This document shows positions 8,717 through 64,000 of a DNA stretch of 64,000 nt, piece by piece. The notes beneath the pieces were generated by a model. It was not told the DNA's origin and searched no databases. It was given only the letters and a program-made list of their open reading frames with translations. The DNA comes from Isoetes taiwanensis (lineage: Eukaryota > Streptophyta > Lycopodiopsida > Isoetales > Isoetaceae). The DNA lies in contig JAJEKV010000001.1 of NCBI GenBank assembly GCA_021234155.1, positions 18,061,382 to 18,125,381 of the forward strand. Reading direction: 5' to 3'. The position numbers were made by a program, and so were the translations under genes. Numbering within the stretch: the first letter of the stretch is position 1; each line of letters begins with the position of its first letter.

Positions 8717-8717
8717 C

Positions 8718-9380: not shown

Positions 9381-9384
9381 GACT

Positions 9385-16050: not shown

Positions 16051-16688
16051 ATCAGGTTGATTGCAGGCTAGGAAGATTCCAAGGTGGGGAGACCCACGAT
16101 GCTGCGGACAGCATCATTTCAAGGTGGGGAGAATGTGGCCAAAGATGCGATACCGGTCTCAAGACGATATCGTGATCTTTGCACCATCACGCGTACACGC
16201 CGTCCAATCGATGTGTACGCCGACGTGTACCCAAGCAAGGTCGCCCTAGGGGACAACTTGCAATGGTGCGCACACTTAGCAATGCGCGCACTTTTAGACC
16301 TTTAACCCATTAAAGGTAGACCAAGGGTCATGGAAACCCTAAACCTAACTGATAGCCTACATAAGGCACCAAACCCTAACTTTCCCTTTTCGCCCACAGA
16401 CCTTCCGAGCTCCGATTCGCGCGCCTGAGTTGATGTGCCACCCTTCGAGGTGGATATATGATGTTATGTTACTGACGTGTATGTTTACGCTTCCGCAGCT
16501 AGGTAGGCCCTGAGGAAGACGGGGTAAAATGACCCCTTCACTCTTCCCACTGTGGACTCTGGGCGGTCACAGTGATATGTGGAGGGCCCTGTATCAGTGT
16601 GGAGCTGGTGCGGGGGATGAACTCCTGTTTGTATACGGTGCGGGCATCGTATATGAGTAGGGGACGTCACAGGCATGACGTAAAAATA

Positions 16689-16689
<1 letters not shown>

Positions 16690-16740
<51 letters not shown>

Positions 16741-16741
16741 A
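16690..16741. repeat. ATCT tetranucleotide microsatellite
   Basis: About thirteen ATCT units; expanded relative to its partner at 4220-4258. Confidence 0.95.
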
Positions 16742-18357
16742 AATATAATTTTTGGTTCATATACATTGCTTTTAAAAATGATTTATCATTACTGAGAAGT
16801 GATGATGAGATACTTATTCCATCTGCAATCAAGGACAGCCTTCTGCAAGTGCTAACATAAGCCTTTGGGGCTGTCATTTAAAAAAGGTGTGCATGTGTGA
16901 TACAAAAGCCCAAATTCTTTAGAGGCAACTAACTAATGCAGCAGTATTCACTTCATTACATGCGACCCTCGAGGTAAGAACATTGTTGTCCCTTTCTAGA
17001 CAAAAGTTTTATGTAGCAGACCATTTTGAATGCCTATTGCAATTTTTTGTACCCAAAAATATCATCTTAGATCATTAATTTCTAGATTCCTGAAGCTATA
17101 GTCTGTCCTGGAGAAAAATATGGCTCAAGATTATGTTGCAGATGCATTTTATGGGCTGGGTTATACATGCTTTCAAGTTGTAGAGCATCTTTGGAGCCGC
17201 CTTAAAATTTTGGGAGCGTACTTTGATTCTCCTGCCAATTCATTAACATGCATATAGAGCCATGCGGGTTGTTTATTTGAGATTGTCCATATCTAACATA
17301 GATAAAATAGAAAGGGTACACTGGAGCATGTTGAACCAATCACTGGAGGCATTGGATCTCTCAAGACTCGAGCTGGGTCTAAGCTTTGGAATATCAGGGC
17401 ACATCTGCAACCATGCATATGTTAGAAATGCACATCTTCACACGCAGGCTGCACTTGGAGGCCAGGCCCAAGCTTTAGAAGCGTGAGCGCCCTGACTATT
17501 TTTTTTTTTTTCTGCATGGATTATTTTTCATCTTCGATATTCACCCAAGTCTTCAAGGCTTGGGTCTAGAAGCGGCGAACAGTCTGCAACTGCACATCTT
17601 CTTTTTGCATGGACGATTTTTCATCTTGGATGTTCACCAAGTCTTCCAGATTTTTCCTAATAAACATTCATTTAGAATATAGACACACATATATGTATTT
17701 TAGCTTTAGCTCTTCTGCAAAATCAGTGAACATAATAAATTTGTGAAGATTACAATCCTGCAACCACTTTGAGGATGTGGACTATTGTATCTGCTTTTTT
17801 TTAATGAACATACCTTTGGGTATGTGATCATGATCATATACTACCAGTTCATGGCTTATCTCAGGTTATTTCTTTCTCAGGTAATTTCATCTTTGCCGTC
17901 TTTACCTTCTTTGTCTATAAACCAAGTGCATTGTTCTGTCATTTTTTGGAGTTGTTCCTTGCCATCACTTGAAAGATCATTCCAATGCTAAGCCCTTAAC
18001 TAGCATCTAGCATAGTTGTGTTCTTTGCAAATCATGCATTAACTGGCTGTATACAAATGCAAATGTGAAACACTTTATCATGTGAGAGTAAAATACTTAA
18101 ACCATGTGAAGATGAATGGCTTTATCTAAAAATTGTAGAGTGTCTTGGGAATTGTTTGATTCTCTTTTGGGGGTTTGAAATGATTCATCCGCCATTATTT
18201 CTTTATGGTGAAGACTTTTCCCTCTTATTTGGGAGCGTGCAAATTCTAGCTGCGTATCCTTCTATGTCTGGATGAAGTGAAGAAGTGTGAGCATAATAGA
18301 TATGACGTAGTATTTCTTGAGGGCCATCCATAAGACACTAGGGTCTCTTCCAAAACC

Positions 18358-18548
18358 TGGCACGAGGGCCATCCATCCTTGGCACGAGGGCCAAAAACTA
18401 CACTCTCTAACAGCACCGGCACGAGGGCCATAAGTCACAACCAAGTCCACTGGCACGAGGGTCTCCTAACACAAGCACGAGGGCCAACCAAAAACTAGCA
18501 TGAAGGTGAAGCTCCCACTGGTACATATCAACAAAACTGGCACGAGGC
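18358..18548. repeat. Scattered GCACGAGGGCC motif cluster (copy 2)
   Basis: Counterpart of 5881-6078 near the right edge of the second long repeat. Here the cores read GGCACGAGGGCC more uniformly than in copy 1. Confidence 0.7.
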
Positions 18549-18770
18549 CACACTCCTCAAATAGTACAATAGCAAGTGGCACTTCCCACCCACAAGGAGT
18601 CAAAAGAGTCAAGCAAGGATATCAAACAAAGAGGAAGTGGCATGGAAACAGGAAGCTACAAGGCTCAACTAAGAAAACCAAGAGATCATCATTATGCAAG
18701 AGGGTGGGAGGGTGGGTGGGGCACCGGAGACCAAGCAACAACTGCGGAGATGAAGATGTGAGCTAGTAGT

Positions 18771-28803: not shown

Positions 28804-28808
28804 ACAAA
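28804..28808. repeat. Target-site duplication of the inner Copia (left)
   Basis: ACAAA, repeated at 34443-34447 on the other side of the element. Confidence 0.85.
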
Positions 28809-29395
28809 TGAAGGAAAAATTCTAGACAATTATGCTTCTAACTTCTTGATTCTACTTAGAAACGACCAAGGAATACATAGTCACTATAATTTCAATTTTA
28901 TCAATGACCATAGACTGCTACAGTAAAAACACTATTCATTTGGTATGGCTTCGAATACTGTAGCAATCAACAATTGATCCCCGAGAGCCCAAGCTTCATT
29001 GATAATATCTGATCGGCAATTAACAATCCAAGAGCCTTTGCTTAGACGAATTCTCCTTGTATTTATACTGATCAATCCAGCTCATGCCGGACCGATCTCT
29101 GAGTTGCCGGACCGATCGCTCAGCTGATCCGGAAAGGCCCAATATGGCACCATCCGATTGCTTCATATAATAAGCAATATCCTTCAAGAATAGAACCTCC
29201 AAATATAACTTAACCTTTTTCGCATGGTTAAATCAAACCTTTAGAGATATTCAGCTCACCCTTCAAAACCTTAGCTTATGCAACGAGTTTAAAGGTTTGA
29301 TTCTCCAAATGGTTCGTCTAAGGATTATGATCTTATCTTAGATCATATGCTACACCATTGCATCAATATTACATGATCTCCCTTCTTTTCTCACA
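28809..29395 (-). repeat. 3' LTR of the inner Copia (587 bp)
   Basis: Identical to 33856-34442 except for five C/T differences. The adjacent interior (minus strand) has the polypurine tract GAAGGGGAAG. Confidence 0.95.
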
Positions 29396-29405
29396 TACTT
29401 CCCCT

Positions 29406-29910
29406 TCATGTAATATTACCTGACTTGCAGCACTGTATAGCACTTCTGTCTTTTTCAAATCTACTAACAGGCAAAGCTTTGGTCAGTATGTCTGCTAATT
29501 GTTCATCAGACTGTATATAAGTCAACTGCAACACCTTTTGAGAGACCAAATCTCTGATAAAGTGTAACTCCAATTCAATATGTTTTGTTCTTTCATGAAG
29601 GACAGAATTTTTAGTCATTGCTATGCAGCTTGTACTATCACAGAACAAGATTGTTGGCAAACTTTGGCAGCATCCCAACTCATTCAAAAGTCTTCTTTCC
29701 CATACAATCTCTTTAGCAATCAAGCAAGCTGAGTTATATTCTGCTTCTGCAGTTGATAGAGCTATGTTGTCTTGCTTTTTACATTTCCATGACACTGGTG
29801 CACCTCCAAGTATTGTTATGTATCCTGAGGTAGATTTCCTCTGATCTAAATCCCCTCCCCAGTCAGCATCACAAAATGCTTTGAGAATCATGTCATCTGA
29901 ATTATATTTT
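29406..29910 (-). pseudogene. Inner Copia RNase H, 3' part
   Basis: LKAFCDADWGGDLDQRKST (first Asp), APVSWKCKKQDNIALSTAEAEY (Glu), LFCDSTSCIAM (Asp) and ERTKHIELELHFIRD are the standard Copia RNase H motifs. The domain continues upstream across the MITE: the codons for FGIK at 30233 join YNSDDM here once the MITE and one copy of the AAAA duplication are removed. Confidence 0.9.
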
Positions 29911-30232
29911 GGGTGAAAGCATGCTAGGGTGTACCATCTAAAGTACTTTTTAGGGAGTGCAAAACTACCCAGAAAAGTACCCAGCACTGGGTACTGGGAA
30001 CTTGCATAAATGCTGCAATAAATAATAAATTTGAGAGTTAATTCATTTATATTAGTCTCTAATAGTATTGTTATCCTCTAATACTATAGATTGACATGTT
30101 ATTGACCTTCAATTCAAAAAATTTCGATTGATTTTAATGGAAAGAGAAAACAGAAAGTACCAGTTTTAAAAGTACCCAGTGTAGGTACTTTTGAGGGTTC
30201 CAAAAGTGGTACACCGTAGCATGCTTTTACCC
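29911..30232. mobile_element. MITE of 322 bp inside the Copia RNase H
   Basis: Terminal inverted repeats of about 26 bp start GGGTGAAAGCATGCTA and GGGTAAAAGCATGCTA (rc of the right end), with GGTGTACCA shared further in. Subterminal repeats of AAAGTACCCAG lie inside. The target duplication is TTTT (3 or 4 bp). There is no coding capacity. Superfamily not determined. Confidence 0.88.
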
Positions 30233-31403
30233 TTTTATCCCAAAGTCCATTGTGCCTTTCAAATACCTTAATATTCTCTTAGCTGCAATCCAATGTGTCC
30301 TTCCAGGGTTATGATTGTATCTGCTCAGCATATTTACTGCAAATCCTATATCAGGTCTGGTACAATTGGCTACATATGATAAACATCCTATTAAAGACAT
30401 ATATGGTACATCTTCCATTTGTTTTCTTTCTTCTTCACTTTGTGGACACAGGTGCTTTGATATTTTGAGTCCAGAGATCATTGGAGTGGCAGCCACATTG
30501 CAGTCCTTCATTCCAAACTTCTCAAGCATATTTTCAATCTGCCCTCTTTGGCTCAATGCTATAGTTTTGTTTTTTCTATCTCTCAACACCTCTATTCCCA
30601 AAAATCTTTTTAATTCCCCAAGATCCGTCATCTTAAAGCGTTTAATCAGCAAACTTTTACAGTGCTCCAATATATTTTTCCCATTTGCTACCATTATATT
30701 ATCGTCCACATACAAAGCTATCATACACCAATCTTTTCCAGCTTTGTATTTATATAAATTCCCATCACATTTCAACTTCTGAAAACCTTGCTCTTGCAAG
30801 TAATTATTCATGCATTTGTACCATTCACGAGGCGACTGTTTTAGCCCATATACAGCTCTCTTCAGCTTCCAGACCTTCCCTTCACCTATTTCAAAACCTG
30901 GAGCTTGCTTAAGGTATATCTCTTCTTCAAGTTTTGCATTTAGAAAGGCAGTGCTCACGTCCATATGATGTAATTCAAGGTCATGTGCATTAGCCATGGC
31001 TAACAAAATCCTCAAGCTGTTCAATTTGACTAATGGTGAGAATGTCTCATCAAAGTTCTGTCCCCTTTTTTACTAATCTTGCCTTGAATTTCTTTAGTCT
31101 GCCATCATTGCTTGGCTTTATTCTAAAAATCCACTTACTTCCTATTACATTCTTTCCTTCAGGTCTGTCAACTACTTCATAAGTCTCTGTTCTTTTGAAG
31201 GCATCCATTTCATCTTGCATTGCTTCCAGCCAAAAGTTCGAATCTCTACTATTTATAGCCTCCAAATAACTCTTCGGCACTGCTGTATTTTCTAAAAGCA
31301 AAATATCAAAGATATTATGAACTTCTAGCGCATATGCATGCAGCCTTCTACTTTTCCCATGTTCATCTCTTCCAAGCTTTTTAAGCATCGATTTGTTTTC
31401 CTC
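30227..31403 (-). pseudogene. Inner Copia reverse transcriptase
   Basis: Two frames overlap a frameshift near 31050. The first (31388-31050) has NFWLEAMQDEMDAF and GSKWIFRIKPSNDG. The second (31024-30227) has LHHMDVSTAFLNAKLEEEIY, VYGLKQSPREWY and the active-site box IALYVDDNIMVANG, then ALSQRGQIENMLEKFGM and IGCLSYVANCTRPDIGFAV. All are characteristic Copia RT motifs. The frame runs into the MITE at 30232. Confidence 0.93.
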
Positions 31404-32510
31404 TCACAGAATTTGGGCTTCAGTTCTTTTACCTTTTCTTGCAGGTTGATCAGTGGGAAGATCTTGTGCTATGATTGGAGTATTCTCGAGTCCAGCATCA
31501 TCACCTTGTCCAGCATCACCAACTTGTTCTTTACTACTATCTTCAGTATCAGCTTCCATATCGTCCTCTTCAACATCACTCGAGTCATCCAAAAAACTTA
31601 TTTTATCTTCTGCCTTTTTTATTTCCTTGGGAATTTCTCTGATCTCATTTTTCTCCTCCTTTTCAGCCATGTCATAGGTATTAACCTTAGGAATCCTTTT
31701 GTAGAATTCTTCTTCATTAAAGACAACATCTCTGCTCACTAGTATTTTTCTTTGAGCTGGATCATACAATCTGTACCCCTTCAAATTTGAATCATATCCT
31801 ACCAAGTAGGAGATATATGCTCTGTCATCCAATTTTTGCCTTAATTGCTCGGGAACATGAACATAAGCCAGGCAGCCATAAGTCCTCAACTCATTGTAAC
31901 TTGGAGTTTTCCCTGTCCAAAACATCTCTGGTATTCCACCCTGAATACTAGATGTTGGCAGAATATTTTGAACAACTACAGCAGTCCTTAAAGCTTCATC
32001 CCATACATAATTAGGTAATCTAGAAAACTTCAACATGGATCTCACAGCATTAAGCAAAGTCCTGTTCTTTCTCTCAGCCACTCCATTTTGTTGGGGGGAA
32101 TATCTGCAGGTTAATTGTCTCCTAATTCCACGGTTAGCACAAAATGTTTTGAATTCACTTGACAAATACTCACCTCCTCTGTCAGATCTTATGCATTTGA
32201 CCTTTCTTCCTATCTCCAGTTGAGCTTCTGCTACAAACATTTTTAGAGCTTCAAAAGCTTGATCTTTAGTCTTCAAAAGATAACATTTCGTTCTTCTGCT
32301 AAAATCATCAATAAACGTCATGAAAAATCTATTTCTTGCCATGCTTGTTATGTTCAAAGGCCCACAGAGATCTGTGTGAACCAGATCCAATAATCCCTTT
32401 GCCCTTTTGAATGTTCTTCTGAAGGGTAACCTTGCCTGCTTGCCAAGCATGCATCCTCTTTGTATGACACAACCGTGTATGCCAAGTTTTAATAGTAGCA
32501 CATTCAACAC
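31404..32510 (-). pseudogene. Inner Copia integrase
   Basis: The 368-residue frame contains the integrase core: DLVHTDLCGPL (first Asp), CIRSDRGGEYLS (second Asp) and QQNGVAERKNRTLL (catalytic Glu). It is followed by the KLDDRAYISYLVGYD region and an acidic linker. The preceding zinc-finger part (WHTRLCHTKRMH) is in the upstream frame, so there is a frameshift near 32480. The frame ends in an in-frame TGA (31406-31404), and the RT frame continues directly after it. Confidence 0.93.
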
Positions 32511-33225
32511 TGTTCAAACTTACAGGTTGCTCATATTCAAGGCCAAACAACTTGCCAACTCTTTTGCCAATAAATTTTATTTCATTATTGAGAAAGATTT
32601 TACAATCAAGTCTTTCAAAGACCACCTTATATCCAAGGTCAACTAATTGGCAAATGGAAATCAAGTTCCTTACAAGTCCAGGCACACAAAGCACATCTCT
32701 AAGCTTAATAGCTTTCCCATCTAGATCAAACAGTTCTAACACTCCTGAGTCTTCTATTTTTTGCAAAGCACCATCACCTAATTGCACATGACCAGCTCCA
32801 GCTCCCTTACATTCTTTGAGCAACCTTGAGTCACATGTCACTGTTTTTTCAGCTCCCGAATCTAAAATCATAAACTTGTTATAGTTCTTGGTTAGCTCAT
32901 TAGAAACAGAACAAATCTGATCAGATCTTACCTCTGTTGTTTCATCAGTTTCATCCTCTTCACTTGAATTGGCTTCCACAATGTTCATCTCGAGGTTTCT
33001 TCCTCTCACGCCACTATTTGTTTTGACAAAGGAGCCTCGATTATTTGAGTATCTCTCCTTGCTTTTCCCCTTTTCAGAAGTCCCCTTTGGACTAGGACAA
33101 CTTGCTGCCATGTGGCCTTTGCCATCACAGTTAAAGCATCTAATGCTTTTCCCTGCATTAGGACATTCAGCCTTAAAGTGTCCATACTTATTACAACTGT
33201 AGCATGGATTTGGATTGCATGCTCT
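32511..33225 (-). pseudogene. Inner Copia zinc knuckles and protease
   Basis: Two CCHC knuckles (CYSCNKYGHFKAEC and CFNCDGKGHMAASC) are followed by the aspartic protease motif FMILDSGAEKTVTCDSRLL, LGDG and LRDVLCVPGLVRNLISI. The frame then leads into the integrase HHCC region. The segment is offset by one frameshift from the upstream gag near 33255. Confidence 0.9.
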
Positions 33226-33254
33226 TTTATACGTCCAACATTTCTTAGCAAGGT

Positions 33255-33830
33255 AGCAAGTTGGCTGTTATGAGCCGCAGATCTGGCCAGGGATAAAATC
33301 TGATATTGCTCATTAAGAATGACACCAGCCCCTTCCAAATCTGCAATAATGGAATCAAATTTTTCCAAATAATCTGTCAGATTATCTTTTTCATACAATT
33401 TCAACCTCCTGAGTTGTTTCTCCAGAACATCTATCTGTGATGAAGTCTTGACTTCATATTGACTCACCAGATACTCCCACATTTCTTTTGGACTCATGCC
33501 TCTCAATTTTAGCTTGATAGCAGTTCCAACTTTGCTTGTGATAATGGCCTGTGCTTCCATTACCTTTAATTCATCAACAGATCCAGAGGTTAGTTTAGAA
33601 ACTACACTTGTTGTTTTACCTCCACTTCCATCTGTTTTTTACTCTTGAACAGTGCTCTCACTTGATTCTGCCACAGACGTTGCCACTTTTGCATTCTCTC
33701 CTTCAATCAAATGCCACAAGTTCTCAAACTCCAGAACCTGCCTTATTCCATGTTTCCAAATCTGAAAGCCATTATCACCCTTGAAGACATCAATGGATGA
33801 CAGTAAATTAGCACCAAAACGAGTAGACAT
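33255..33830 (-). pseudogene. Inner Copia gag
   Basis: It starts MSTRFGANLLSSIDVFKG 13 bases after the primer site, then FQIWKHGIRQVLEFENLW. A single TAA near 33640 interrupts the frame. After that the typical Copia gag helices continue (ITSKVGTAIKLKLRGM, MWEYLVSQYEVKTSSQ, LKLYEKDNLTDYLEKFD). It ends in a frameshift just before the zinc knuckles. Confidence 0.88.
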
Positions 33831-33842
33831 TTTTAGTATGAG

Positions 33843-33854
33843 GCTCTGATACCA
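33843..33854 (-). promoter_or_regulatory. Primer-binding site of the inner Copia
   Basis: On the minus strand TGGTATCAGAGC, complementary to initiator Met-tRNA, directly inside the 5' LTR. Confidence 0.93.
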
Positions 33855-33855
33855 A

Positions 33856-34442
33856 TGAAGGAAAAATTCTAGACAATTATGCTTCTAACTTCTTGATTCT
33901 ACTTAGAAACGACCAAGGAATACATAGTCACTATAATTTCAATTTTATCAATGACCATAGACTGCTACAGTAAAAACACTATTCATTTGGTATGGCTTCG
34001 AATACTGTAGCAATCAACAATTGATCCCCGAGAGCCCAAGCTTCATTGATAATATCTGATCGGCAATTAACAATCCAAGAGCCTTTGCTTAGATGAATTC
34101 TCCTTGTATTTATACTGATCAATCCAGCTCATGTCGGACCGATCTCTGAGTTGTCGGACCGATTGCTCAGCTGATCCGGAAAGGCCCAATATGGCACCAT
34201 CCGATTGCTTTATATAATAAGCAATATCCTTCAAGAATAGAACCTCCAAATATAACTTAACCTTTTTCGCATGGTTAAATCAAACCTTTAGAGATATTCA
34301 GCTCACCCTTCAAAACCTTAGCTTATGCAACGAGTTTAAAGGTTTGATTCTCCAAATGGTTCGTCTAAGGATTATGATCTTATCTTAGATCATATGCTAC
34401 ACCATTGCATCAATATTACATGATCTCCCTTCTTTTCTCACA
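33856..34442 (-). repeat. 5' LTR of the inner Copia (587 bp)
   Basis: Partner of 28809-29395. On the minus strand it begins TGTGAGAAAAGAAGG and ends ...TTCA next to the primer-binding site. Confidence 0.95.
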
Positions 34443-36739: not shown

Positions 36740-39700
36740 TCATATAATCCATAGAATTTCCTCCCTATGAGCTATGGCTGTGATTTGGATGATATCAACA
36801 AAAGCTCTCTTAAGCCAAAAGATGGAAGGGGGCTGATCATTAATAACAACCCTATTTCTGTGTAACCAGACCATCCAGCAGCTCAAAGTTCTTGTGGTAC
36901 TTTCCAATCTGTCCTTAGTATCCCAAAAACTTAACAGATTTTGATCTGTAGGGGCTCCTTTGTTAATCTGGGCAGACCAACTCCAAAACTCAGTCAACCA
37001 TGGACATGTAAAGACATGGTTTGAAGTTTCCACCTGGCCACACTGAGGAGACAAATTAGACACAGGCCTATCAAATTTTGCTCTTTTCTGATTTGTTTGC
37101 AAACTCTGGTGAACAGCCAGCCACCTAAAAGCTTTGATTTTATTAGCATAATAGCTTGACCATCCTTGGGCACATATTTCTACAAGTTTGTCTTCATTGC
37201 ACTGCCATAAAGGGCCAGCCTTGGAGAGTTTATATGGTACCAGAGCCTTATAGATTTCTCTGACAGAATACCATTCTTTGTTATTCAAATGCCATGTACT
37301 TGAATTTTTACTGAACTCATCATATCCCTCTATTCTACTTATAACTATCCTGAATATTTCTTTGTCTAGCTCTGATCCCTTTGTTTTCTCTGCTAATTCC
37401 TCCCAAGTCATCCATCTTTCCTGCACCCTCAGATCCTCAAAAGTTCTAATGCCACTATTATGCCACTGCATGTATTTTTGCGGGTGTTTCAATGCAAGAC
37501 AACCTATGTTTTCTGGTGCAAAGTAAGGGTGCCAAAAGAAATGCAAATCTTTGCTTGTAGCATCAATATTAGGGGGTCTATAACACAAGGATGCATTATT
37601 CCAGGCCTCCAGCATTCTTTTAATAATACTAGAGGTCCCCGGGCATGGGGATAGCTGGAAGAAGGCTGAGTCTGGAAGTTGATGCTTTAGGGTATGACTT
37701 CCTACAAGGAAGGATTCCTGAATCCAGAATTTCATGAGTTGTAAAGCAGGGGATGGCCTTGTGGCATAAATAGCTTTCCATACCATTTTAGCTGCTAATG
37801 CCTGAGCTTGAATGAACATGTCCTTACAACCCATACCACCATCTTTTTTAGGTTTTATTAGATCTGCCCATGCCACTTTATGAGAACCTTGCCATATGAA
37901 TTTCCTAATTGCAGCCTCCATTTTACTATAAGAGTTTTTGTCTCCAACAATTGCAGACGAGAAGTACACATGTGTACTACTTATGACAGCATTAGCAATT
38001 TCAATTCTACCTGCCAATGATAATGAGGAGGTGTACATGGATAACTTTCTCTTAATTCTGGTCACAATTGGTTCCCACAGGCCTTGTAGAGAACTGTTAA
38101 TTGATAAAGGAATTCCCAGAATACTTGTGGCAGAATTTGCTTTTAAAATTTTGATCCCTTGTAGCATTGTATCCTGAGAGTCATAAATTATTGCACTCTT
38201 GTTTTTGTTCAGTCTGACACCTGCAGCATCTCCAAATTCATCCATAGCAGCCAAAAAATTTTCTAGGCTCTTCCCCTCTTTTTCTGGTTTAGCTGCTAAT
38301 GCCTGAGCTTGAATGAACATGTCCTTACAACCCATACCACCATCTTTTTTAGGTTTTATTAGATCTGCCCATGCCACTTTATGAGAACCTTGCCATATGA
38401 ATTTCCTAATTGCAGCCTCCATTTTACTATAAGAGTTTTTGTCTCCAACAATTGCAGACGAGAAGTACACATGTGTACTACTTATGACAGCATTAGCAAT
38501 TTCAATTCTACCTGCCAATGATAATGAGGAGGTGTACATGGATAACTTTCTCTTAATTCTGGTCACAATTGGTTCCCACAGGCCTTGTAGAGAACTGTTA
38601 ATTGATAAAGGAATTCCCAGAATACTTGTGGCAGAATTTGCTCTTAAAATTTTGATCCCTTGTAGCATTGTATCCTGAGAGTCATAAATTATTGCACTCT
38701 TGTTTTTGTTCAGTCTGACACCTGCAGCATCTCCAAATTCATCCATAGCAGCCAAAAAATTTTCTAGGCTCTTCCCCTCTTTTTCCAGAAAAACAAAAGT
38801 ATCATCTGCATATTGCATCATTGTGAAAAAACCTTTATTGTCTGGGAGCTGAAGACTCTTGATATATCCCTGAAGTTGCAGTTGCATAGCTTTCCTGGTC
38901 ACCATCTCAGCTACAATGAGAAACAGGTAAGGGGCCAAAGGGCACCCTTGCCTGACCCCTCTTTGACATTTAAATAACTTGGTAGGTGTGCCATTGACAA
39001 TTAATGCTGATGCAGAGTTAACATTGAAACTCCATACCTTTTTGTAGACACTGCTAGGAAGTCCAATATGTGTCATAGCTTTCTCTAAGAACTGCCAGCT
39101 TATTGTATCATATGCTCTTTTGAAATCCAGCTTGAGCAGCATACAATTTTGTCCCGATCTGTTGTTCCAGTGCAATCCTTCAGCAGCTCCAATATAATTT
39201 TCCAATATATTCCTCTGAGGTAAGAAAGCTGATTGGCAAGGATTGATTGTTGAGTGCAGAAACATTTTTAATCTATTTGCCAATATCTTTGCCAGGACCT
39301 TGTAACTTGTGTTTGTCAGAGAAATTGGTCTCCAATCCCCAATACCTTTTGGACAATCCACCTTTGGAATAAGTGTTATGTGGCCAGCATTTATTGCTGG
39401 GTTAAGACTAGTGGCCTTCCAAGCACCTTGAAAGAAAGTTATCAGGTCATCTTTCATAATTTCCCAAAATTCTACATAAAACTCGGGCTGGAATCCATCT
39501 GGTCCAGGGCTCTTTCCAGCAGCCATGGATTTAAGAGTCTCCCAAATTTCTTTCTCTTGTGGAATTGCTAGTAGTTCATCATCCTTTAATTCCTCCTTAG
39601 CTTTAGGAATATTCTGGAAAAAGTTCCCAATAACCTGCTCATCTACATGATAACTCTGAAACATGTTCCTATATTCTTCATGGAAAAACTCTTCTATTTC

Positions 39701-53412: not shown

Positions 53413-54961
53413 TTTTTTATCGTCCACGGAGACCAATCGGCCTATGGGACCCAATACAAAAAGTCTTGTGATCACATTCTTGCGGGATTAAAAACCCCCC
53501 CCCCAAGGGTTTTCGAGGAAAAACCGTGGCAGCAATAAGGCTAGCGACATCAATTAAATGGTTGATCGGGGCATATCTCGAGCCCCTCAAGTCGGTGCTT
53601 CTTGAATGTATGATCCGGTGAGGGCACCAAGTCGTGCCCGATATCATGTGTGGCGGCTCATCATGTCTAATCAATCGAGTATAGCGGTCCGGACGATCAT
53701 ATCTTTGGGCATCTCACGGAAAGTGTGACACTCATCCTCCAGCGACTCGATGCGGCAACCGACAAACCCTATCGGCGTTGCTCCCCAATCCATCGACTGT
53801 CTCAATCAGGAGATGGTGGGCACACTGTCTTGAATGGAGGCGATATGCTGCGCTTTTCATGGGCGATGTGAGCGTAGGTAGCGTGGGCCTCGTTCTAATG
53901 TGGGATTTATGTCTTTGTAATGTCTTTGTTTTGACTTGCTCCGAGCCCGGAATCCCAAAGCTTGCTGGAGAAACAAGTATCAAGGTAACATCTCAGTCCG
54001 CCACGACCGCCTGTTTCTACGGATGCACATGTGCTCTGGACATTCCATCTAGTTAGCCATCGCGACTCTTTTATCCTTCCAACAATTCTTTGAGTCGTTG
54101 TGGTCCCATTGCCTTTGATAAGCCAAGTGCGGTAGACGATCATCATCCATATTTACCACCTTCCTCGGAAATAGGCGATGCGGTGTCTATCAAGGGCCGT
54201 CGGGAAGTTTGTGGAAACCTTTGTCTCCTCGCAACAAAATTTGATAAGGGACCGTGGATTTCACCGAAAAGTGCCCGTGCTAAGAAGGCCTTAGACTGTT
54301 CTAAGTCGCCCAAGTAGCAAGGGACACCACCGGGCCCCGGACTTCAACTCCGCATACAAAGAACGGGCTCTACCAATACCGAGACGTGATGTGTGCGATG
54401 CCCCCAATCATATAGTTTCGCGCTCGTGGTTATTGTTGCATTGCATAGAGTGCTTTCGGCCTGGCGCTACACGCAATCTTATGGAAGTGTCCCAAAGATA
54501 GTGTAGAAGGAAACTCCACTCCCGGATACTTGTAGGTGGGTGTCACCTCCACTTGTTTCCCTCGATAAGTGAATGAAGGGGGCCTTGGATCGCTGAGGAT
54601 GAGATTAGGACCACCTTGGTCTTGGCTAGATTGGCGTTCATGTGCGTGGCACGGCGAATGTATCCGAGCATCTAAGTGGAGACCGCATATCCTCCGGGTG
54701 TGAGCTAATAGGTCAACATCGATGCGCATAGATGAGTTGTCTGATGACCTGATGCAAAAGTTGGGTCCCGCCACCCCCATTGTCCATGAGCCAGTGTTCC
54801 AACTGGTCAATGTACAGACCAAACAATGTTGGGGAAAGAGGACATCCCTGGCGGACCCCAATACTGCTAGTGAATGGTTGTCCCGTCATCCGCATGGCCT
54901 GTACAACTCTCGTACAACCTGTATACTGCATTGCAATGGTTTGTGTTAATTAACATTAATG
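53413..54961 (-). pseudogene. Decayed non-LTR retrotransposon (RT to 3' end)
   Basis: The minus strand at 54931-54713 reads TSSIGVRQGCPLSPTLFGLY and IDQLEHWL; a damaged YADD box follows (LIYA...DVDLLAHT near 54700). In other frames there are NLILSDPRPPSFTYRGKQVE and VTPTYKYPGVEF, typical of the region after RT. The rest (to 53413) is broken C-terminal sequence ending in an A-run. Many frameshifts. The GVRQGCPLSPTLF signature and different sequence show a LINE clade distinct from the two L1 copies. Endonuclease is absent. Confidence 0.75.
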
Positions 54962-55180
54962 ATATGTGTCATATTGTTATATTACTTACAACTCCATATG
55001 GTGGAACAAAAAATGACCTACTCGCTAACTTAGACGCACAGTAAAGGAGATGATTGAAATACACTAAATATAAAGGACTTGCAAATGATCCTAGTAGTAA
55101 TGGTTGTACTAGGCCATTATATGGGTCCCATAGCCTCTTGGTCTTCGTAGACGGGTGAAAATATCGTTACCCTGGTTTTG

Positions 55181-55628
55181 GTGATTCCATCGCGGTGAAT
55201 ACTTTCCCGCGGAATCACAGACCCTCAGGCAACGGGATCCGTTCCGGAGATCCCTTTGGCCGTACCTGACGGTACGGCAATGAATTCAATACTGTCCGGT
55301 GGAATCACAGTGGTAGAATACTGCCGGACGGAATCACCACTTCATTATTCCACGCGATGGAATCACGACGACGGAATACCGCCGGATGGAATCACCCGTC
55401 ACGGATCCCACGGCACGGAATCACCAAGTTGCAATCCCGCCGGACGGAATCACAAACTTGTTATTTCATCTGACGGAATCACCATATTCTGATTCCGTCC
55501 GACGGAATCACCGTAGATAGGATTCCTCCCGACGGAATCACCCAGATTGGATTCCGTCCGGCGGAATCACTACGATCTGATTCCAGCCGACGGAATCACA
55601 TCACCGTGAATCAACCGGATGGAATCAC
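55181..55628 (+). repeat. Left terminal array: 29-bp palindromic units, GGAATCAC orientation
   Basis: GGAATCAC occurs at 55301, 55330, 55359, 55388, 55418, 55446, 55475, 55504, 55534, 55563, 55592 and 55621, a strict period of 29 (plus or minus 1). Earlier degenerate units continue the phase back to 55211. Between conserved cores each unit usually has GATTCCGTCCGAC just upstream of GGAATCAC, so the unit is a near-perfect palindrome, while about 6-9 bases between palindromes vary. The array reads inward toward the Ulp1-like gene and is GC-rich unlike its surroundings. Confidence 0.93.
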
Positions 55629-55958
55629 CGCGAGTGAAGGACGCATCCAGGTCGTCGATGCCACGTCGACATGGGATATCCGTCGCTATTTTATATAAAA
55701 AGCCTATTTAAATTCAGGGCCCAGCTTTTGAATTGAATGCCGGACGCCGGGCATTATTAGCCGCTGCACCGCCATCGGCGGAAATGATTGCATGGTCATT
55801 GCCCTATCACCGCGATGCCCGCGTCAACCCATAGCGGATAGTGATCTGTCCGAAGGAATCACCACCGTTAGCGCCCGAAGCCCTTTCTCCACGGCCGTTC
55901 GGCCTCCGTTTCCTCCTTCCCTTCGAATTCTTGTCCCTTTCTTATATCATTTGTTCAT

Positions 55959-58362
55959 ATGGATCAAAGCCCTGGAACCTCGGTTAATGAGAACTTCCAG
56001 GCAGAATCTTCCGCTAACTCGGCTTTCAATTTTCCTGCCAACAATCCTTTGCCGGAAGAACTGGTAGATTCGGAGGTGGACTCCCCTCCTAAGTTTCCTC
56101 CAGGTTTTGAGCCAGTTGGAGGCGCTGGTCAGATGGCGGATCTTGCATCTATCAAAGGTATGACTTTTTGTTAGTCGGGGCCGACTTATTCCTGTGTGCC
56201 CGTGGAGGGAGTCCTCGCCTCCCCGAAGCTCGCTTCCCGACAAAGAAATAAAGAAAAGGCTACGTAAAAGGGCCGAAAAGCAAGGATCCAAAGGAAAAGG
56301 TTGATTGCAAGGAGCCCGAAGATTTCGGAGAGGATGCTGTGGAGAACCCTCCTCAGGATTACACCGGATACATGGATGATGAAATCGCAAACTGGAGGTT
56401 TGATCGGGCAGATGGGCGTTGTGGGTGTAGTAGCAGTTACTCCAAAAAATGGGATTTGGAGATCCACAGACTCGCAAAGCATTCCATGACGAATGATTAC
56501 AAGCTGCCACCATTGGCAAGAGGCCGGAAACCAATTGCTCCAGAAATGAGCAGGAGGAAGAGGAACTTTGAATTGGTGAAGTCAGTTGGAGGCGGATGAA
56601 GATTATCCGCGGCAAAGATAATCTTAGGCGGATTTTGGTGAGGGCCAGGCGAAGGGCCGAGGCTATCGCAGAGGAGCAGATTGAGCACGAACTTCTCAAT
56701 CCTGCTATGAGGTCTGCTTGAGTCAATCAACAGGTGGAGATAAGGCGGACGGTAGAGGAAACTCTGGAGGAGCAGAAGAGGGAAGCAATTAAAAAAAATC
56801 GCCAAGCCAGATTTGGTCCCGGCAGTTGAAGAGATGAGGGCGAGATTTCATATTCAGAGAGCAAGCTCGGGTAGAGAATGATGATTTCAGCAAGGAATTC
56901 GCACAGGCCCAAGGAGATCTTGCATCCCCCCCTCCCAGGAAAGTGACCAAGCTCCCACTCAAAAGCTCCCCGAGAACTCCAAGGAAGAAGAGGGGGGCAA
57001 AAAAAACAGAGGACTACCTTGCCCCTAACCATATAGTGTTTGAAACCTCCAGCTACATTCAGGGTTTGCGTGAGGCAATTCAATCAGCAGGACTCCCCGA
57101 TCCCAGAGCTTCATCGGAAGAGGAGGGCACTTTAATTGAGATCCCCATGATGCATAGGCTGGAAGCCAGTTTTTTTAATTCTGTCTTTTCTTATCAATCA
57201 GGTCTTCTTTCCAGGAGGTGGACCTGTAACTTCACATTTAAATACCCACTGACACTAAGCAGCACAGCCATTCGAGTGGGCAAGAAATCATCAGCAGTAG
57301 AATTTCGGGTGTATGGCAACTTCGCCCAAGATTTCATGACAGTTCCCGGGCCTGGAGAGGATGTGGATTGCAGAATCAATGAAGAATGTGTTGGTGCCTA
57401 TCTGCTGTAAGTCACGGTTATAAGCACTACGGTTATTGCAATGCTTTGATTCGCTGACTATGTTGGGCTCTGCAGGGCCTTGATACATTCCATTCCCCAA
57501 AACAGAAGATCCCAGCATGTTTTCGTGCATCCTGCGGCCTTTGGCCTTTTTTTGCAGAACAGTTTGGAAGGTCAATCAGGTTCATATGATCTGTTTGCTA
57601 AATTAATCCCACCGAAACCCTTTATCAGGCAGAATTGGCGGATGCAGAATGTCGGATTCTATTACTTCCCAGTCATGAGCAGGTAAAGAATCCGTTTTAA
57701 ATCCATTCATGGGCAATTGAACCTAAAATCGGGTTTTGCAATTGTTTGCAGCAATCACTGGAGCTTGTACATATTGGTTTCAGACGCTGATGCATGCCAC
57801 CAGCTCCGGACTCCTTGTCCAGTGTTGCTCCATTTAGATTCAGGGCATGCACTCGAGCTTGCACTGTTTCGCCACTTTGTGAGTTAAATTCTGCCCCTTT
57901 CAGGTCAATTTTTGGGTTCCTCTGATTCCTTTGGCCACAGATTTGTGTCCGACATTATGAAGAGGTGGAAGTTTGAGTCGTCCAGATTGCACAATGCCCC
58001 CTACGTCTCTTTGAAGGTCCCTCAGCAGGAAAACACCCAGGATTGCGGCATTTACACGATCTGTTTCGTCAAGTGGTTCTTGCAGGATATGTGCAACACC
58101 AAAGAGCAGTCTGTGGGTATTTTGTGTCTCCAATTTTATCTTATCTATTCGAAGTTCGTGCTAATTTTCCTGATTGCAGGTTGTGGATACTTCGAAATGG
58201 TTTGGGCGTGCTGAGATCGACCAAACGAGGTCCTCATTTGCAGTGATGCTACAAAAATTGGGAGACTGTGTCCAACAGAGAAGAAGCACCTTCCACTTGC
58301 CCGAGGGAGATTGGAGTGAAACCGGTGGCCCTATGACCCGTTTAAGGATCAATGGGCCTTGA
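55959..58362 (+). CDS. Ulp1-type cysteine protease-like gene carried by the Mutator element (multi-exon, partly decayed)
   Basis: The C-terminal part has the C48 (Ulp1/SENP) catalytic set: His in SNHWSLYILVSDAD (near 57757), Asp in VLLHLDSGHALE (near 57838), and Gln and Cys in VPQQENTQDCGIYTICF (near 58043). Placed exons include 55959-56157, one ending at 57406, 57476-57682, 57752-57879, a catalytic-Cys exon to about 58110 and 58180-58362. The last ends VQQRRSTFHLPEGDW..LRINGP. The middle region (KTEDYLAPNHIVFETSSYIQ, MMHRLEASFFNSVFSYQSG) resembles nothing I know. Region 56225-56900 (charged, coiled-coil-like) needs frameshifts to read through, and the 57879-57903 junction does not keep frame with the obvious splice sites. 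The protein would cut SUMO-like modifiers if functional. Starts with MDQSPGTSVNENFQ. Confidence 0.8.
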
Positions 58363-58586
58363 ATTTTTATTATGTTTGTGTGAATATGTCAATAGAATAG
58401 CAAAAATACCAGCCTTGCTGGGTTTAATCTGAGTTCCCGAATGTATCAGAATTTGAATTCGGTTGAATTTGAATGTATTTTAGCGCGAATCTGTGTCAAA
58501 ATGTTTGAACTTGAATATTCGAATATGCCGTCCATACCACTTAAAAAATAGAGAATAGTCACGCCAATGGTCGAAAATCTAGGTTG

Positions 58587-58660
58587 GTGATTCCCTCGCA
58601 AGGAATCTCTATCCGGTGGAATCACAAGATGGTGATTCCATGCCGTGGAATGCCCGCCGC
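58587..58660. repeat. Internal cluster of the Mutator palindrome
   Basis: GTGATTCC at 58587, GGAATCAC at 58618 and GTGATTCC at 58632, with degenerate partners (AAGGAATC, TGGAATGCC). Further single copies are at 58821 and 59858, the last a clear GTGATTCCATCCCATGGAAT palindrome. They lie after the Ulp1-like stop codon, so they may be the end of one element or internal regulatory sites. Confidence 0.8.
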
Positions 58661-58753
58661 CATCATTGCATGCCGCAGGCATTAATTGCTTGTTCACGTC
58701 AAATGCACGCCGCATTACGGACGGACGCCTAACCGGCGTGCGCGAAGCGGGCA

Positions 58754-59493
58754 ATGAAACGGCGCCACGTCGGCGGCTACACTGACGGACAATTTAGGGC
58801 AAAATCTAGGCCCATAGGGGGTGATTCCACTCCACAGAATCATCCTTCGGCGGCCGGACCAGCACCATCCGGCCATTATTCACTCATAATTCCTTGTTTG
58901 CCGCTCCCGTGGAGGCGCCGATCTTCCCCGTCGGCGCTTGCTTCCCAGCCATCGGCGCTAGTTTCCAGTTTATCGTCATCAGGTAAGAATCATGTTCGCC
59001 TATAGCAAATGATGGATGTTCTTACCATCTGTTGCTGAGTTCCAGGCATGGCGGACTGCCCCCCAGTAGCCATAATCGACGGCGTCCTCGTGGTAGACCT
59101 TGGTTTTCTGGAGGCGCTTAAGGATTGCAGGCTTGAGAGTCTGCAGCAGCGTCTCCGGAGTCGTGCACTGGTAGAGGTGCCGCCAATTTCCGTCGCCATA
59201 CCTTCTGGACGCGGTTGTGAATGCATTAGAATTCCTGTGAAGGTCTCCAACGTTTCACACATCCCCCGCACGAGGCGGCTTGATGAGGAGTGGACAAAGA
59301 ACTGTTTGCCTACATTCACGCGAAGGCGCCGAAGGAGTTATCTGCAAAGTGTGGCTGCAAAGATTCTGCTGGTTCTAAGCGAGTGAAGGAGGAGTGCAAG
59401 GACGAGCCAGATGACGATGATTTTGTGTTCCCGGGTTACTCTTTGCAAAGACCCAAGTTCGGGAAGGTCAGGCGGTCTCTTAACAAGGTGTGA
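58754..59493 (+). CDS. Two-exon hypothetical gene inside the Mutator element
   Basis: A first exon from 58754 to about 58981 (MKRRHVGGYTDGQFRAKSRP...VSSLSSSG) is followed by a good intron (CAG-GTAAGAATC to TTCCAG, about 58982-59044). The second exon holds MADCPPVAIIDGVLVVDLGF and RTRRLDEEW. One frameshift near 59295 leads on to ELFAYIHAKAPKELSAKCGC and DEPDDDDFVFPGYSLQR, ending at 59493. No family recognised. The first ATG may instead be 59048 with the upstream exon as 5' UTR. The position, between terminal arrays and in the Ulp1 orientation, suggests element cargo or a captured host fragment. Confidence 0.45.
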
Positions 59494-59857
59494 CTTCAGT
59501 GCCGCTATTCCTTTGGTGAGCTTTATTTACCGCGCAACTCACTCACCGCATGAACCGCAGAGAAAAACGAGCCCGCCCCGATTCTGATTGCATAGTTCGC
59601 GATGATTGATGAAGCAGGCGCGTCCCTTTTTTTTCCTTTGTTTTGTTGACACACCTTTCTATAAATCCGGGGGAATTCTGAATCCCTCTTGAGTTTTTGA
59701 GTTCCTGGTAGCTACCTTGCTTAAGGGCTTTTTTTGAAAATACAAATCTAAGTTGCTTGATGTTCAATCTGTTCAGTTAGCTTCAAATTGCAACCACATG
59801 CAACTTCTCCATGCATACAAACTGTTTTTTCCTGAATCTGTGGCATGGCCGTGTATG
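59494..59857. other. Spacer before the minisatellite
   Basis: No gene seen. It is probably the 3' flank of the small two-exon gene; it ends at the single palindrome at 59858. Confidence 0.4.
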
Positions 59858-59874
59858 GTGATTCCATCCCATGG

Positions 59875-60860
59875 AATATTCTATACATATTGTGAATTTA
59901 CACAAAATTTTGAATTTATACATAACATATTTATACATAGAGGGTATAGGTAGTATTTGTACATACGGTATTTGTACAAAGATAAGTTAGACATGGAGTA
60001 TTTAGAGGTAGTTATACGTGGAGTGGCTATACGAAGAGTATATGTACATAGAGTATTTATACATGTAGTAGTTAGGGTTATACGTGGAGCAGATACATAG
60101 AGTATTTGTACATACGATAGCTATACGTAGAGTATTTGTACATAGAGTATTTATACATGTAGTAGTTAGGGTTATACGTGGAGTAGATACATAGAGTATT
60201 TGTACATATGATAGCTATACGTAGAGTATTTGTACATAGAGTATTTATACATGTAGTAGTTAGGGTTATATGTGGAGTAGATACATAGAGTATTTGTACA
60301 TACGATAGCTATACGTAGAGTATTTGTACATAGAGTATTTAGACATCTAGTACTTAGGGTTGTACATGGAGTAGTCCGGGTTATACATAGAGTATTTATA
60401 CGTGTAGTAGTTAGGGTTATACATGGAGTAGATACAAAGAGTATTTGTAGATAGATTGGTTATACATAGAGTAGTTATACATGGAGTATTTGTACAAACT
60501 TTGCTTATACATAGTATTTATATGTATAGTATTCGTACATAGAGTATTTATACATCTAGTAGTTAGGGTTATAGTTAGGAGTAGTCACATGTAGTGGTTA
60601 GGGTTATACATGGAGTAGATACATAGAGTATTTGTACATACTTTGCTTATACATAGAGTATTTATACATATAGTATTTGTACATAGAGTATTTATACATC
60701 TAGTAGTTAGGGTTATAGTTATAGTCACATGTAGTAGTTAGGGTTATACATGGAGTAGATACATAGAGTATTTGTACATACTTTGCAGTATACATGTAGT
60801 AGTTAGGGTTATACATGTAGTAGTTAGGGTAATACATAGAGTATTTATACATCTAGGCAA
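59875..60860. repeat. Large minisatellite with 94-bp higher-order period
   Basis: Nearly 1 kb of short phrases such as ACATAGAGTATTTGTACATA, TATACGTAGAG, GTAGTAGTTAGGGTTATAC and GGAGTAGATACATAGAG. The GTTAGGG phrase recurs at 60071, 60165, 60259 and 60353, exactly 94 bases apart, and the 94-bp unit is built of about 20-bp sub-units. The right part is more shuffled. It lies between the convergent genes of the Mutator element and reaches the 3' end of the transposase. Confidence 0.95.
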
Positions 60861-63451
60861 GGTCTTCCATTTCATGTTCCTTCCAACCAAGTTTCCTTTT
60901 CTTTGCCTCCCTCTTCCCTATTTCCAAGAGTGGTTTCACCCTAGCAAGACTCGTGCCATAAGCCTCCTCTTCAGTCAACACTGGCAGAGATGTTATGGTT
61001 GTGTCATTGGCCTCCTCCTCGTTCATCCTTTCAAGTCTTGTGTCAAGCTGTCTCATCATCACTTCCGTGGCTATGAGGAGGGTGGGATCCTTTGAGGCCC
61101 GCTCCATAACCCTAGCAACACAAGACTCCAAAGATGCCCTAGCATCTTCCACTGTCAAGCCAACTTTTGGGGTTGGTCTAATGTCATCCTCTAGACTACT
61201 TATGTCTACCTCGGCCCCTTCAAGGATATTGGCATGGGTGTTACCAGATCTACATGGGCGCAAGAGCTCCATGCCACCACATGCATTTCCATGTTGGGAC
61301 CCTAGAACTTGAGGTCTTGATCCCTGTACCTATCCATCATTTGGATAACCTTCACTTGGTGTTTGCAAATGTTCCCCTTGGCGCCCCATGGGCAATCACA
61401 ATTCGCCCAATTCTTATTTGCCCCATTGACAAAGTAGGGTTGGCGGTTCAAATCAAGAGTTTGGACATAGGCCTCTCCTCCATCGAGGTCCACGAATGTG
61501 ACTGCATCATCAGGAATTTGCCTAGCCTCGTGAATAGCCGACTCTATAATTTGCTCTTGTGATGTGTTTATCACAAAACCAGCTTCCTTCAACCCCCTGT
61601 CAGCAAGCAAATGATACAATATGGAGGGTTAGTGCATACATGAAGCAAATTTTAGTCACTTCTAGTAATTACCTAGAGTATGCCATGTGGGTCTCCACAT
61701 CATGGACAAGCATGTGAAGTAGCCAATCTATCCTCCTGCCTTTTAATTGGGACTTGGAAATCCCGAGGCGCAATTTTAGTGCCTTGTGCCAAGCCTCTAT
61801 TGCAGCATTGGTTTCTTGATTGGAATGGGGAAAGATTCTTGTGGCCAGGACCCAATCACAAATGTTGCGAGTCCACTCTCGACTCATGTAGGCCGCCAAC
61901 TTTGGATATTGTGGGTACTTTCTCTTTAGTGCTTCCAACTTCCTCGAAGCCTCTTCCCTAACAGCCTCTATGTAATCATCCCCGTACTCATTGTTACCTG
62001 GGGGACACTTTGTTCCATACATGATCTCGCCCAACTCCTTGAACATTTGGTTCCTCAAATCTTTATTCTTCACGTTCTTTGTCAACCACTTCAACCAGTC
62101 TCTCCTCATGTGCCAGATGCAAAGGTTGACACGTACGGTAGGGAAAACCTATGGTGGAGGGGGAAAGTTGACACATAGGGTTAGTATGGAACCAAATAAA
62201 CCAAAATGAAAAGGAGGATAACTAGGAAACATTATTACCTTCTTTATTGCATGTATTTCAGCATCACAAGAATCGGTGATAAAACATGAGGGCTTCCATG
62301 TCGAGTCGTGGTGTTCAATCCACACTTTCATAGCTTCTAGCCATCTAGCTATTGTCTCTTTCTTCTGGGTATTCGTGACAATCCAAGCCAGTGGCATCCC
62401 ATTGAAGTGGTCATCGAATCCAACCAGAGTGAAGAGGTAATACCTGTTTAAATAGAAACACGCTTTAGCAAACCTAATTTCCAAGGAACCTAAAAAGGAG
62501 CAACCATACCTCTTCTCGTTTGACTTGTAGGTGGAGTCAAGGCATATAGCTCTATCCTTTCCAAATCTCACCATGGCATCCCTTTGAATGGGAGTCATGA
62601 CCCCAAGTTGAAAGATGTCACCTTGTTCATAGTGGAAGACACAATCTTGGTGTTGTTGGACCCACATGTGGACGCTTGTTGCTTGGTCTTCATGCAACTT
62701 CCATACATTTCGAGCCACCAATTTATTAATATTGTAGACATCATGCATCTTCAACATGTCGTCCCTGGACAACCCCTCCAAACCAGCCACATCCTTCTTC
62801 AAGTTCACCCTCTCTTGGTGGATGTTCATCACCATTCTAGGTGTTATATAGTGCACTAGCTTCTGTTTGATCCATTCTTTCTTTTCAGCCGAGAGCCATG
62901 GTGCTAGCCTATACCTCAACCCTTTCTCAATAGGTTGTGCTTTACCATGGCAGATTGCACCTTGCTTGTTCACATGATCCCATTTGTGGTAGGTAATTTG
63001 AGTGCAATTGGGAAGAAGATAGAGCTGCTTCAAAGTAAAATGACATTGGCAACCCCTTCTAACACTCTCCCCTCTCTCAATCCTCTTCCTTCTCTGGCCT
63101 GGAGGGGGACGTCGATCCTCAACAACATGAGTGTTCTCAGAATTGTCTTCTGGCCCAAAGACACACCAGTACCTTTGTTGCACCAGGAATGAATCAGACA
63201 TGCTTTAAAATCCAAACAAATTATCACAAGTCAGGGAAAGGAAATTCACACCTCTTCAAAGTCAGATATGAACCTTTGCTCGGTTTGGATAGCTCTTTAT
63301 TCCTTTGAGAGCTTCTTATGTAGAAACTGCATGGTGCTTCCCCACTTTTTTGCTCCCCAGCTATGAAATCCCCAACCCGTGAGGTGGGAATGTGGCACAA
63401 CCAAACCGGTTGAGTACCTCCTTGTGGTTCAGGACTCTGGTGCTCTAACAT
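60853..63451 (-). CDS. Mutator-like (MULE) transposase with SWIM zinc finger, five exons
   Basis: Exons placed by GT-AG and phase: 63451-63252, 63202-62510, 62443-62239, 62148-61673 and 61596-61302 with a further frame to 60853. DDE elements: ICLDSTYKSNEKR (first Asp), CFITDSCDAEIHAIKK (second Asp), LCIWHMRRDWLKWL (the C-x-x-H box after intron 3) and TNAAIEAWHKALKLR (Glu). The C-terminal SWIM finger is CDCPWGAKGNICKH. All four junctions keep the reading frame. A stop (TAG) near 61303 is followed, one base shifted, by 139 more codons (MELLRPCRSGNTHANIL..., acidic, ending KKRKLGWKEHEMEDLA), so the tail is either frameshifted or spliced. The enzyme would cut at the terminal arrays. The gene points inward from the right array. 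The 63252-63451 first exon is the least certain. Confidence 0.9.
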
Positions 63452-63659
63452 AACCCAGGGTAGTCGACTGTGATCAAAATGCCCTTCTGCAGGGTCTGTT
63501 TACCAGATGCCTGATTGCAGCTGTCAATAAAAATGCTATCAGAGCTTGCCCCGCTGCAAGGACATGGAAATCAGTTGTTCCAGGCACTAACCTCCTCGAT
63601 CTTCTTGTCCAGATCCATCCCGAGCTCCCCGCTGCCGTCGTCGAGCAGAGGAATGCAAG

Positions 63660-64000
63660 GTGATTCCATCGGATGAACAGAGAAGGTGATTCCATCGCAT
63701 GGTTCGAACAGGGGTACGGGGGATGCACATTTTTTAAATTCCGGCGGGTTGGACTCACGACGACACCATGGCCGTCGATCTGGTCCATGAATGCAGTCTC
63801 GATGTTGAGACTTGTCGAACATGCAACTTCGTACCTCCAGTGCATTCGTCTTGCGGAATTCCACCTGGGTGATTCCATCCAGTAGATTCACGGTGATGTG
63901 ATTCTGCGGGATGGAATAACATTTTGGTGATTCCGTCAGATGGAATCAGATTGTGGTGATTCCGCCGGACGGAATCCAATCTGGGTGATTCCGCCGGGAG
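63660..64000 (-). repeat. Right terminal array: 29-bp palindromic units, GTGATTCC orientation
   Basis: GTGATTCC occurs at 63660, 63686, 63869, 63898 (GTGATTCT), 63927, 63956 and 63985; the last five are exactly 29 apart. The orientation is opposite to the left array, so the two form terminal inverted repeats. A stretch of about 170 bases (63700-63868) without clean units interrupts it. The array continues past the window end. Confidence 0.92.

Follow-up and report, generated by a model that had tools for sequence, protein, structure and literature searches.

VANC21, from the Arabidopsis VANDAL elements, binds short motifs that lie as dense, one-orientation arrays in terminal, intergenic, and intronic DNA, with local CG hypomethylation (PMC5735166). 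Some VANC genes also carry Ulp1 (KIU), and KIU is one of the three genes of its element, according to the excerpted text of a 2026 review (PMC13317346). Ulp1 genes running in reverse to the transposase are known—again from excerpts—in KI-MULEs as well as TIR-MULEs (PMC2528002, PMC13317346). Repeats within the TIR itself are described, in the available parts of the sources, for Muta1 and Muta5 (9 copies of 12- and 15-bp subterminal repeats) and for Tm1 (13-15-bp repeats; PMC5225508, PMC3169594), and the partial text on Galileo gives a long TIR with three transposase THAP sites, two of which are found in direct repeats.

The element described here was found in Isoetes taiwanensis, within a stretch of 64,000 nucleotides that was analyzed as a whole (the window). 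It is a ULP-bearing MULE with foldback-type composite ends. Both kinds are already described. All results refer to one element copy, whose right end is located beyond the window.

As in KI-MULE/Kaonashi and in families of grapevine and melon, as far as the excerpted sources describe them, a MULE transposase, a reverse-oriented Ulp1-like gene, and three candidate genes are present. Unlike KI-MULEs, which these texts treat as non-TIR, the element bears clear array-type TIRs and thus falls outside a strict KI-MULE definition; TIR-bearing ULP-MULEs have been reported from grapevine and from melon. With VANDAL/VANC it shares a short motif of one orientation, placed as tandem arrays in noncoding terminal and intergenic DNA (PMC5735166, excerpts of PMC10398659), whereas the motif words differ, VANDAL TIRs are given there as mostly absent or degenerate, and a VANC domain was not found in the pieces scanned here. 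Like the foldback-type MULEs Muta1/Muta5 and Tm1, its TIRs consist largely of short tandem repeats (PMC5225508, PMC3169594, in part); the units excerpted for those elements measure 12-15 bp, in contrast to the 29-bp unit, its unequal dyad, and the interior cluster found here. CRISPR-looking short repeats with diverse spacers and an association with mobile elements, including a VANDAL3 copy, are also known from Arabidopsis SIRC, but the excerpted account of SIRC cassettes gives 2-8 direct repeats and does not describe paired terminal arrays (PMC10342631). In maize MuDR, too, the genes converge and are flanked by TIRs in which transposase-binding sites and promoters are located (PMC3310237, in part, and general knowledge). 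Among the open-licence literature matches listed, which came from searches by topic and not by the letters of the unit and are partly excerpts, the 29-bp unit is absent.

The element and its genes

The left end of the element and its three candidate genes are as follows.

55144-55152: candidate 9-bp target duplication, directly before the candidate left terminus (a reading of the sequence)
55153-55172, plus strand: candidate left terminus GGGTGAAAATATCGTTACCC (likewise; its partner end would lie beyond the window)
55959-58362 (about), plus strand: predicted Ulp1/C48-type cysteine protease gene of several exons (PF02902)
59048-59386, plus strand: small ORF, the putative third gene
61302-63201, minus strand: MULE transposase with MULE domain and SWIM finger, predicted in 3 exons and reading 577 aa before its first stop

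The transposase matches PF10551 (2.2e-10, above cut-off) and the SWIM finger PF04434 (9.9e-5) in a Pfam scan, which agrees with the Mutator assignment of a first-pass annotation of this DNA; a PDB sequence search with its first exon gave no match up to E 1. Convergent with it runs the protease gene, whose Ulp1/C48 domain is recognized by PF02902 (3.9e-6 for one exon, 1.1e-6 for the joined pieces), by HW, D, and QDCG motifs, and by a PDB match to Sentrin-specific protease 7 (E 0.0014). The N-terminal half of the protease is interrupted by stops or unrecognized introns. One piece of the gene (56252-56599, plus strand) contains a C-x-C-x12-H-x4-H stretch, a possible small zinc finger without Pfam match. 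The small ORF has zero Pfam or NCBIfam matches. The VANC protein domains DUF1985 and DUF287 gave no Pfam match in the small ORF and the scanned N-terminal pieces of the protease—a scan that covers part of the broken N-terminal half and leaves distant relatives possible. No RNA family reaches its gathering threshold in 54900-64000. Within the element lies an AT-rich satellite (59880-60860) of 15-bp subunits around TACATAGAGTATT with 94- and 144-bp higher-order units; its core TAGTATT recalls the VANC21 motif YAGTATTAY, perhaps by chance.

On the left, the reverse transcriptase remnant of a LINE (minus strand; PF00078 3.4e-5, below the curated cut-off) stays open as far as 54949. This suggests a left edge of the element between 54949 and 55181. 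In this interval, a MULE-like start GGGTGAAAATATCG at 55153 follows right after the 9-mer 55144-55152 and is a candidate terminus.

Elsewhere in the window, positions 1-6289 and 12482-18760 form a direct duplication of 6.3 kb (96.4% identical), and a 498-bp tandem duplication (37787-38785, 99.8% identical) is found within a LINE ORF open over 1296 codons. At 28804-34442, two 592-bp direct repeats enclose a retrotransposon which we take to be Copia-type from Pol_BBD and zinc-knuckle matches plus motifs typical of the group; the 99.0% identity of these repeats suggests a probably recent insertion. A further retroelement (6547-9386, minus strand) carries a reverse transcriptase (PF00078 9.9e-19), an RNase H-like ORF (PF13456 0.059, below cut-off), and a tyrosine-recombinase-like ORF (PHROG integrase 0.0052), and is presumably DIRS-like, a label that follows motifs typical of that group. 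The excerpted text of a 2022 review excludes DIRS from land plants, until then found in green algae only (PMC9033089). Hence, the host may be unusual in this respect, or the DIRS label is wrong.

A directional site in inverted terminal arrays

The repeats at both ends of the element consist of two half-sites in alternation, GGAATCAC (R) and GTGATTCC (F), whose starts are 14 and 15 bp apart in turn, and each array is a dyad about two centres with a period of 29 bp. The window contains 18 matches to the pattern GTGATTCC-N7-GGAATCAC at up to three mismatches; 100 shuffles gave an expectation of 0.27 and a maximum of 4.

55181-55218, plus strand: outermost composite unit, in which a weak half lies between an exact F half and an exact R half
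55301-55628, plus strand: left array, 12 unbroken exact GGAATCAC halves with starts from 55301 to 55621
55692-55700, plus strand: TATA-like sequence TATATAAAA, a consensus match only, about 64 bp inside the left array
55841-55862, plus strand: single proximal site, exact R half at 55855, poor dyad partner
63660-63708, no strand assigned: two proximal sites on the right, each with an exact F half (63660, 63686) and a poorly matching partner
63869-64000, minus strand: right array, in the opposite orientation to the left one; 5 F halves, 4 of them exact, are visible before the window ends

The outermost left unit has its exact GTGATTCC at 55181 and its exact GGAATCAC at 55211. All steps of the left array are 29 bp, except for one of 30 (55504-55534). 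In the right array, exact copies of GTGATTCC start at 63869, 63927, 63956, and 63985, with a one-mismatch copy at 63898. The proximal site at 55855 precedes the predicted ATG of the protease by about 97 bp and is not among the 18 pattern matches.

The unit is directional. Its inner half is exact in 12/12 left units, while the other half averages 5.4 of 8 matching positions (range 3 to 7); in the right array the inner half is again strict (exact in 4/5), and the four visible partner halves match at 6, 7, 7, and 6 of 8. Among the left units, mean pairwise identity amounts to 0.30 for the 6-bp R-F spacer and to 0.56 for the relaxed half. These units were picked via the exact octamer, yet the 12 of them tile the region without a missing member. 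Altogether 9 of the 29 columns of the left array are invariant, 8 of them contiguous, beside near-random spacers. Such a pattern looks like a constrained binding site and would be hard to obtain by neutral slippage.

This bears directly on one alternative, a neutral minisatellite, in which a functionless TIR segment was expanded by slippage. Slippage can expand 29-bp units, and the single 30-bp step together with a likely extra unit on the right side suggests turnover. But uniform mutation would be expected over all columns, in place of 8 contiguous invariant ones (plus one other) next to near-random spacers, and the octamer is also present outside the arrays in the same element; we regard this explanation as improbable.

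The left and right arrays can be aligned as the two arms of a single inverted repeat (131 bp, 80% identity, E 1e-28, the right arm being cut by the window edge), and the alignment ends at the inner edge of the arrays. The element thereby has a long inverted repeat made of short tandem repeats and presumably terminal on the right as well, as in foldback-type elements, with the unit number of its right end only partly within the window. Between the arms, individual units can be paired: unit 63985 on the right is identical to unit 55534 on the left at 21/21 non-core bases, and unit 63898 matches unit 55592 at 19/21, compared with a mean of 10.2 over all pairs. Unit 63956 ties between 55563 and 55475 (17/21 each), which leaves two clear pairs, and the permutation test for unit order alone lacks significance, the observed value being reached in 5,083 of 20,000 shuffles. 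The homology of the arrays hence follows from the two clear unit pairs and the 131-bp inverted alignment. Shared units also mean that at least some of the variable spacers are common by descent and are not CRISPR-like acquisitions. The two spacers common to both ends (21/21, 19/21) speak against a CRISPR array; Cas families are absent from the Pfam matches of the nine pieces scanned. A 36-place array pattern has zero exact matches in viral contigs, which is of little meaning for this element.

The first-pass annotation had described facing half-sites in 29-bp tandem arrays of opposite orientation at the two ends, and the 18 pattern matches and the inverted alignment bear this out. Its fixed core holds for the octamer and its variable spacers for the 0.30 identity, apart from the two spacers that both ends have in common. 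Its palindromic unit survives as a dyad of F and R half-sites with unequal halves. A palindromic 7-bp loop, and with it a perfect 23-bp dyad, was dropped, since the loops show 31 complementary pairs against 30.7 in shuffles (21 sites, p 0.52). Phasing of the palindromes at about 2.7 helical turns per unit was abandoned as well: at 10.5 bp/turn, 29 bp correspond to about 2.76 turns, which puts successive units off one helical face. What goes beyond that annotation is the directional site, the arrays as one inverted repeat, the interior clustering, and the weaker CpG depletion near the clusters.

To our knowledge, the TIR of maize MuDR is without such a tandem array. The annotation knew of no such terminal repeats in Mutator elements; a view of them as foreign to the group is not supported as it stands, given the composite short-tandem-repeat TIRs published for Muta1, Muta5, and Tm1, whose excerpted accounts do not show the present unit.

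Sites in the interior and the CpG pattern

Further exact sites are found in the interior of the element, at 58587, 58618, 58632, 58821, and 59858.

58587-58654, plus strand: interior motif cluster (exact F, R, F halves)
58821-58843, plus strand: lone interior site of the motif; the small ORF begins about 205 bp further on
59858-59880, plus strand: lone interior site of the motif, bordering the AT-rich satellite

The first interior pair (58584-58626) is 79% identical over 43 bp to the outermost left unit (55178-55219; E 1.5e-5). Once the AT satellite is masked, the octamer is the commonest 8-mer of the element. Its 27 exact copies in the window—counted with the predicted gene models and a left edge at 55155—fall 26 times into noncoding DNA of the element, never into gene regions (4,744 bp, introns included), and once into the flank (54,949 bp); at up to one mismatch, these three classes hold 34, 4, and 30 copies. 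Within the window the motif is thus nearly specific to the element, with 1/27 exact copies outside, and with 0 exact sites in gene regions it forms a motif array in noncoding DNA as in VANDAL/VANC. Upstream of each of the three candidate genes, a cluster is followed by a gap of about 160-210 bp and then by one or two single sites. The polarity of the sites follows the arm of the element: in the left part, 14/15 exact sites are R, and from 58587 on 10/11 are F, independent of the direction of the nearest gene.

These distributions can be read in different ways. In one of them, the arrays are multi-site transposase-binding ends—a foldback-type composite TIR that the transposase would coat at both ends and pair, with the interior sites as relics or transposition enhancers. 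The longest arrays do lie at both ends, inverted and with some units in common, the polarity goes with the element arm, and Muta1, Muta5, Tm1, and Galileo are precedents, as far as their accounts are excerpted. On the other hand, this reading leaves unexplained the CpG pattern described below, there is also a cluster of sites in front of an internal ORF, and the Muta1/Tm1 precedents concern repeat structure, the excerpts describing no transposase binding to those repeats. This role, which the first-pass annotation had considered likely, is possible; a VANC-like target array is at least as good a match to the interior cluster in front of an ORF, to gene regions free of exact sites, to a ULP gene in the element, and to the CpG pattern.

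Alternatively, a host transcription factor might bind the array as an upstream activating sequence, with the TIR acting as a promoter. The TATA-like sequence at 55692 and the sites upstream of all three candidate genes would suit this. Yet the 55-kb flank holds just 1 exact copy, a run of at least 12 consecutive sites is, by general knowledge, unusual for a host enhancer, the orientation does not match transcription at the small ORF, and a search for a TATA-like match near the right array, on the transposase side, found none. We hence consider host-factor sites unlikely, although less so than a neutral minisatellite.

In plants, CpG decay follows methylation, and TpG/CpA goes up when methylated CpG decays. 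In 300-base windows, CpG obs/exp reaches 0.99-1.49 around the left array (starts 55050-55800), 1.02-1.38 around the interior cluster (58350-58650), and 1.01 in the last window (63600), against 0.19-0.51 over the transposase gene. The flank has a median of 0.42 and a 95th percentile of 0.98 (312 windows of 350 bp); its GC-rich windows (GC >=0.47, n=45) have a median of 0.73, and 2/45 reach 1.1. With the sites themselves masked, DNA up to 200 bp from a site has a CpG obs/exp of 1.10 (96 CpG, 1,631 bp), against 0.50 in the rest of the element (163 CpG, 6,368 bp); other radii (100 to 300 bp) give 0.98-1.22 near and 0.48-0.53 far. Circular shifts at 200 bp reach the observed difference in 4/177 cases, all of them 150-300 bp off the true register, and placements over the flank in 0/462, in a test on one element that was devised after the profile was seen and in which neighboring shifts are not independent. 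The motif-free leader of the transposase (63202-63455) has a value of 0.24, and TpG/CpA is low around the left array (0.86-0.94).

Since CpG decay follows methylation, this weaker depletion suggests that the DNA near the clusters carries little methylation in the germline, above all at the left one, which is what one would expect of VANC-type binding. The pattern is imperfect: CpG obs/exp is 1.34 in motif-free DNA (59511-59650), 0.87 in the small ORF, 1.03-1.23 in the AT-satellite windows (59850-60150) with one site at their edge, and 0.90 for the right array alone, where TpG/CpA is raised (1.29-1.32) to the level of the genes. The GC-rich flank control, the satellite windows, and the raised TpG/CpA of the right array weaken the argument. 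The pattern could also arise from host DNA that is GC-rich and was captured, or from ordinary promoters that stay unmethylated.

A possible target array for anti-silencing

The arrays probably bind a protein encoded by the element. We tentatively prefer a VANC-like anti-silencing role of this ULP-bearing MULE, in which the arrays and the interior cluster are bound by such a protein; it is slightly favored over end-binding by the transposase. The TIRs would repeat, every 29 bp, a directional binding site of the approximate form GATTCC-N7-GGAATCACC, and a DNA-binding protein, most likely the product of the protease gene or of the small ORF, would dock on the arrays and the interior cluster. Bound there, it would keep the noncoding control regions of the element free of cytosine methylation, like VANC of Arabidopsis VANDAL, so that the genes of the element could be expressed, and it may also mark the ends for the transposase.

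Anti-silencing is preferred because the octamer is exact in 12/12 units beside spacers of 0.30 identity, because exact sites are absent from gene regions, and because of the CpG pattern. In addition, clusters lie upstream of all three candidate genes and not just at the ends, and VANC21 and the Ulp1-bearing VANC genes (KIU) provide precedents for the motif array and for the gene, respectively. Against it speak the VANC-type domain not found in the scanned pieces, the clear TIRs in which the arrays sit, whereas VANDAL TIRs are mostly absent or degenerate, and the exceptions to the CpG pattern in 59511-59650, the small ORF, the satellite windows, the right array, and the GC-rich flank. The polarity, following the element arm and not gene direction, suits end recognition better. 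A more specific version of the anti-silencing reading seems doubtful, namely that a non-VANDAL MULE lineage has its own anti-silencing system, in which an Ulp1-bearing protein recognizes the 29-bp unequal-dyad TIR unit and one array serves as both end-recognition site and methylation shield, leaving a measurable lack of CpG decay.

If the arrays are transposase-binding ends, the element would offer an example of multi-site composite ends whose unit is easy to score. If anti-silencing holds true, sequence-specific anti-silencing encoded by a transposon would extend to a long-TIR element. It would also suggest a screen by sequence only—for CpG retention near motif clusters—that might be used without methylation data.
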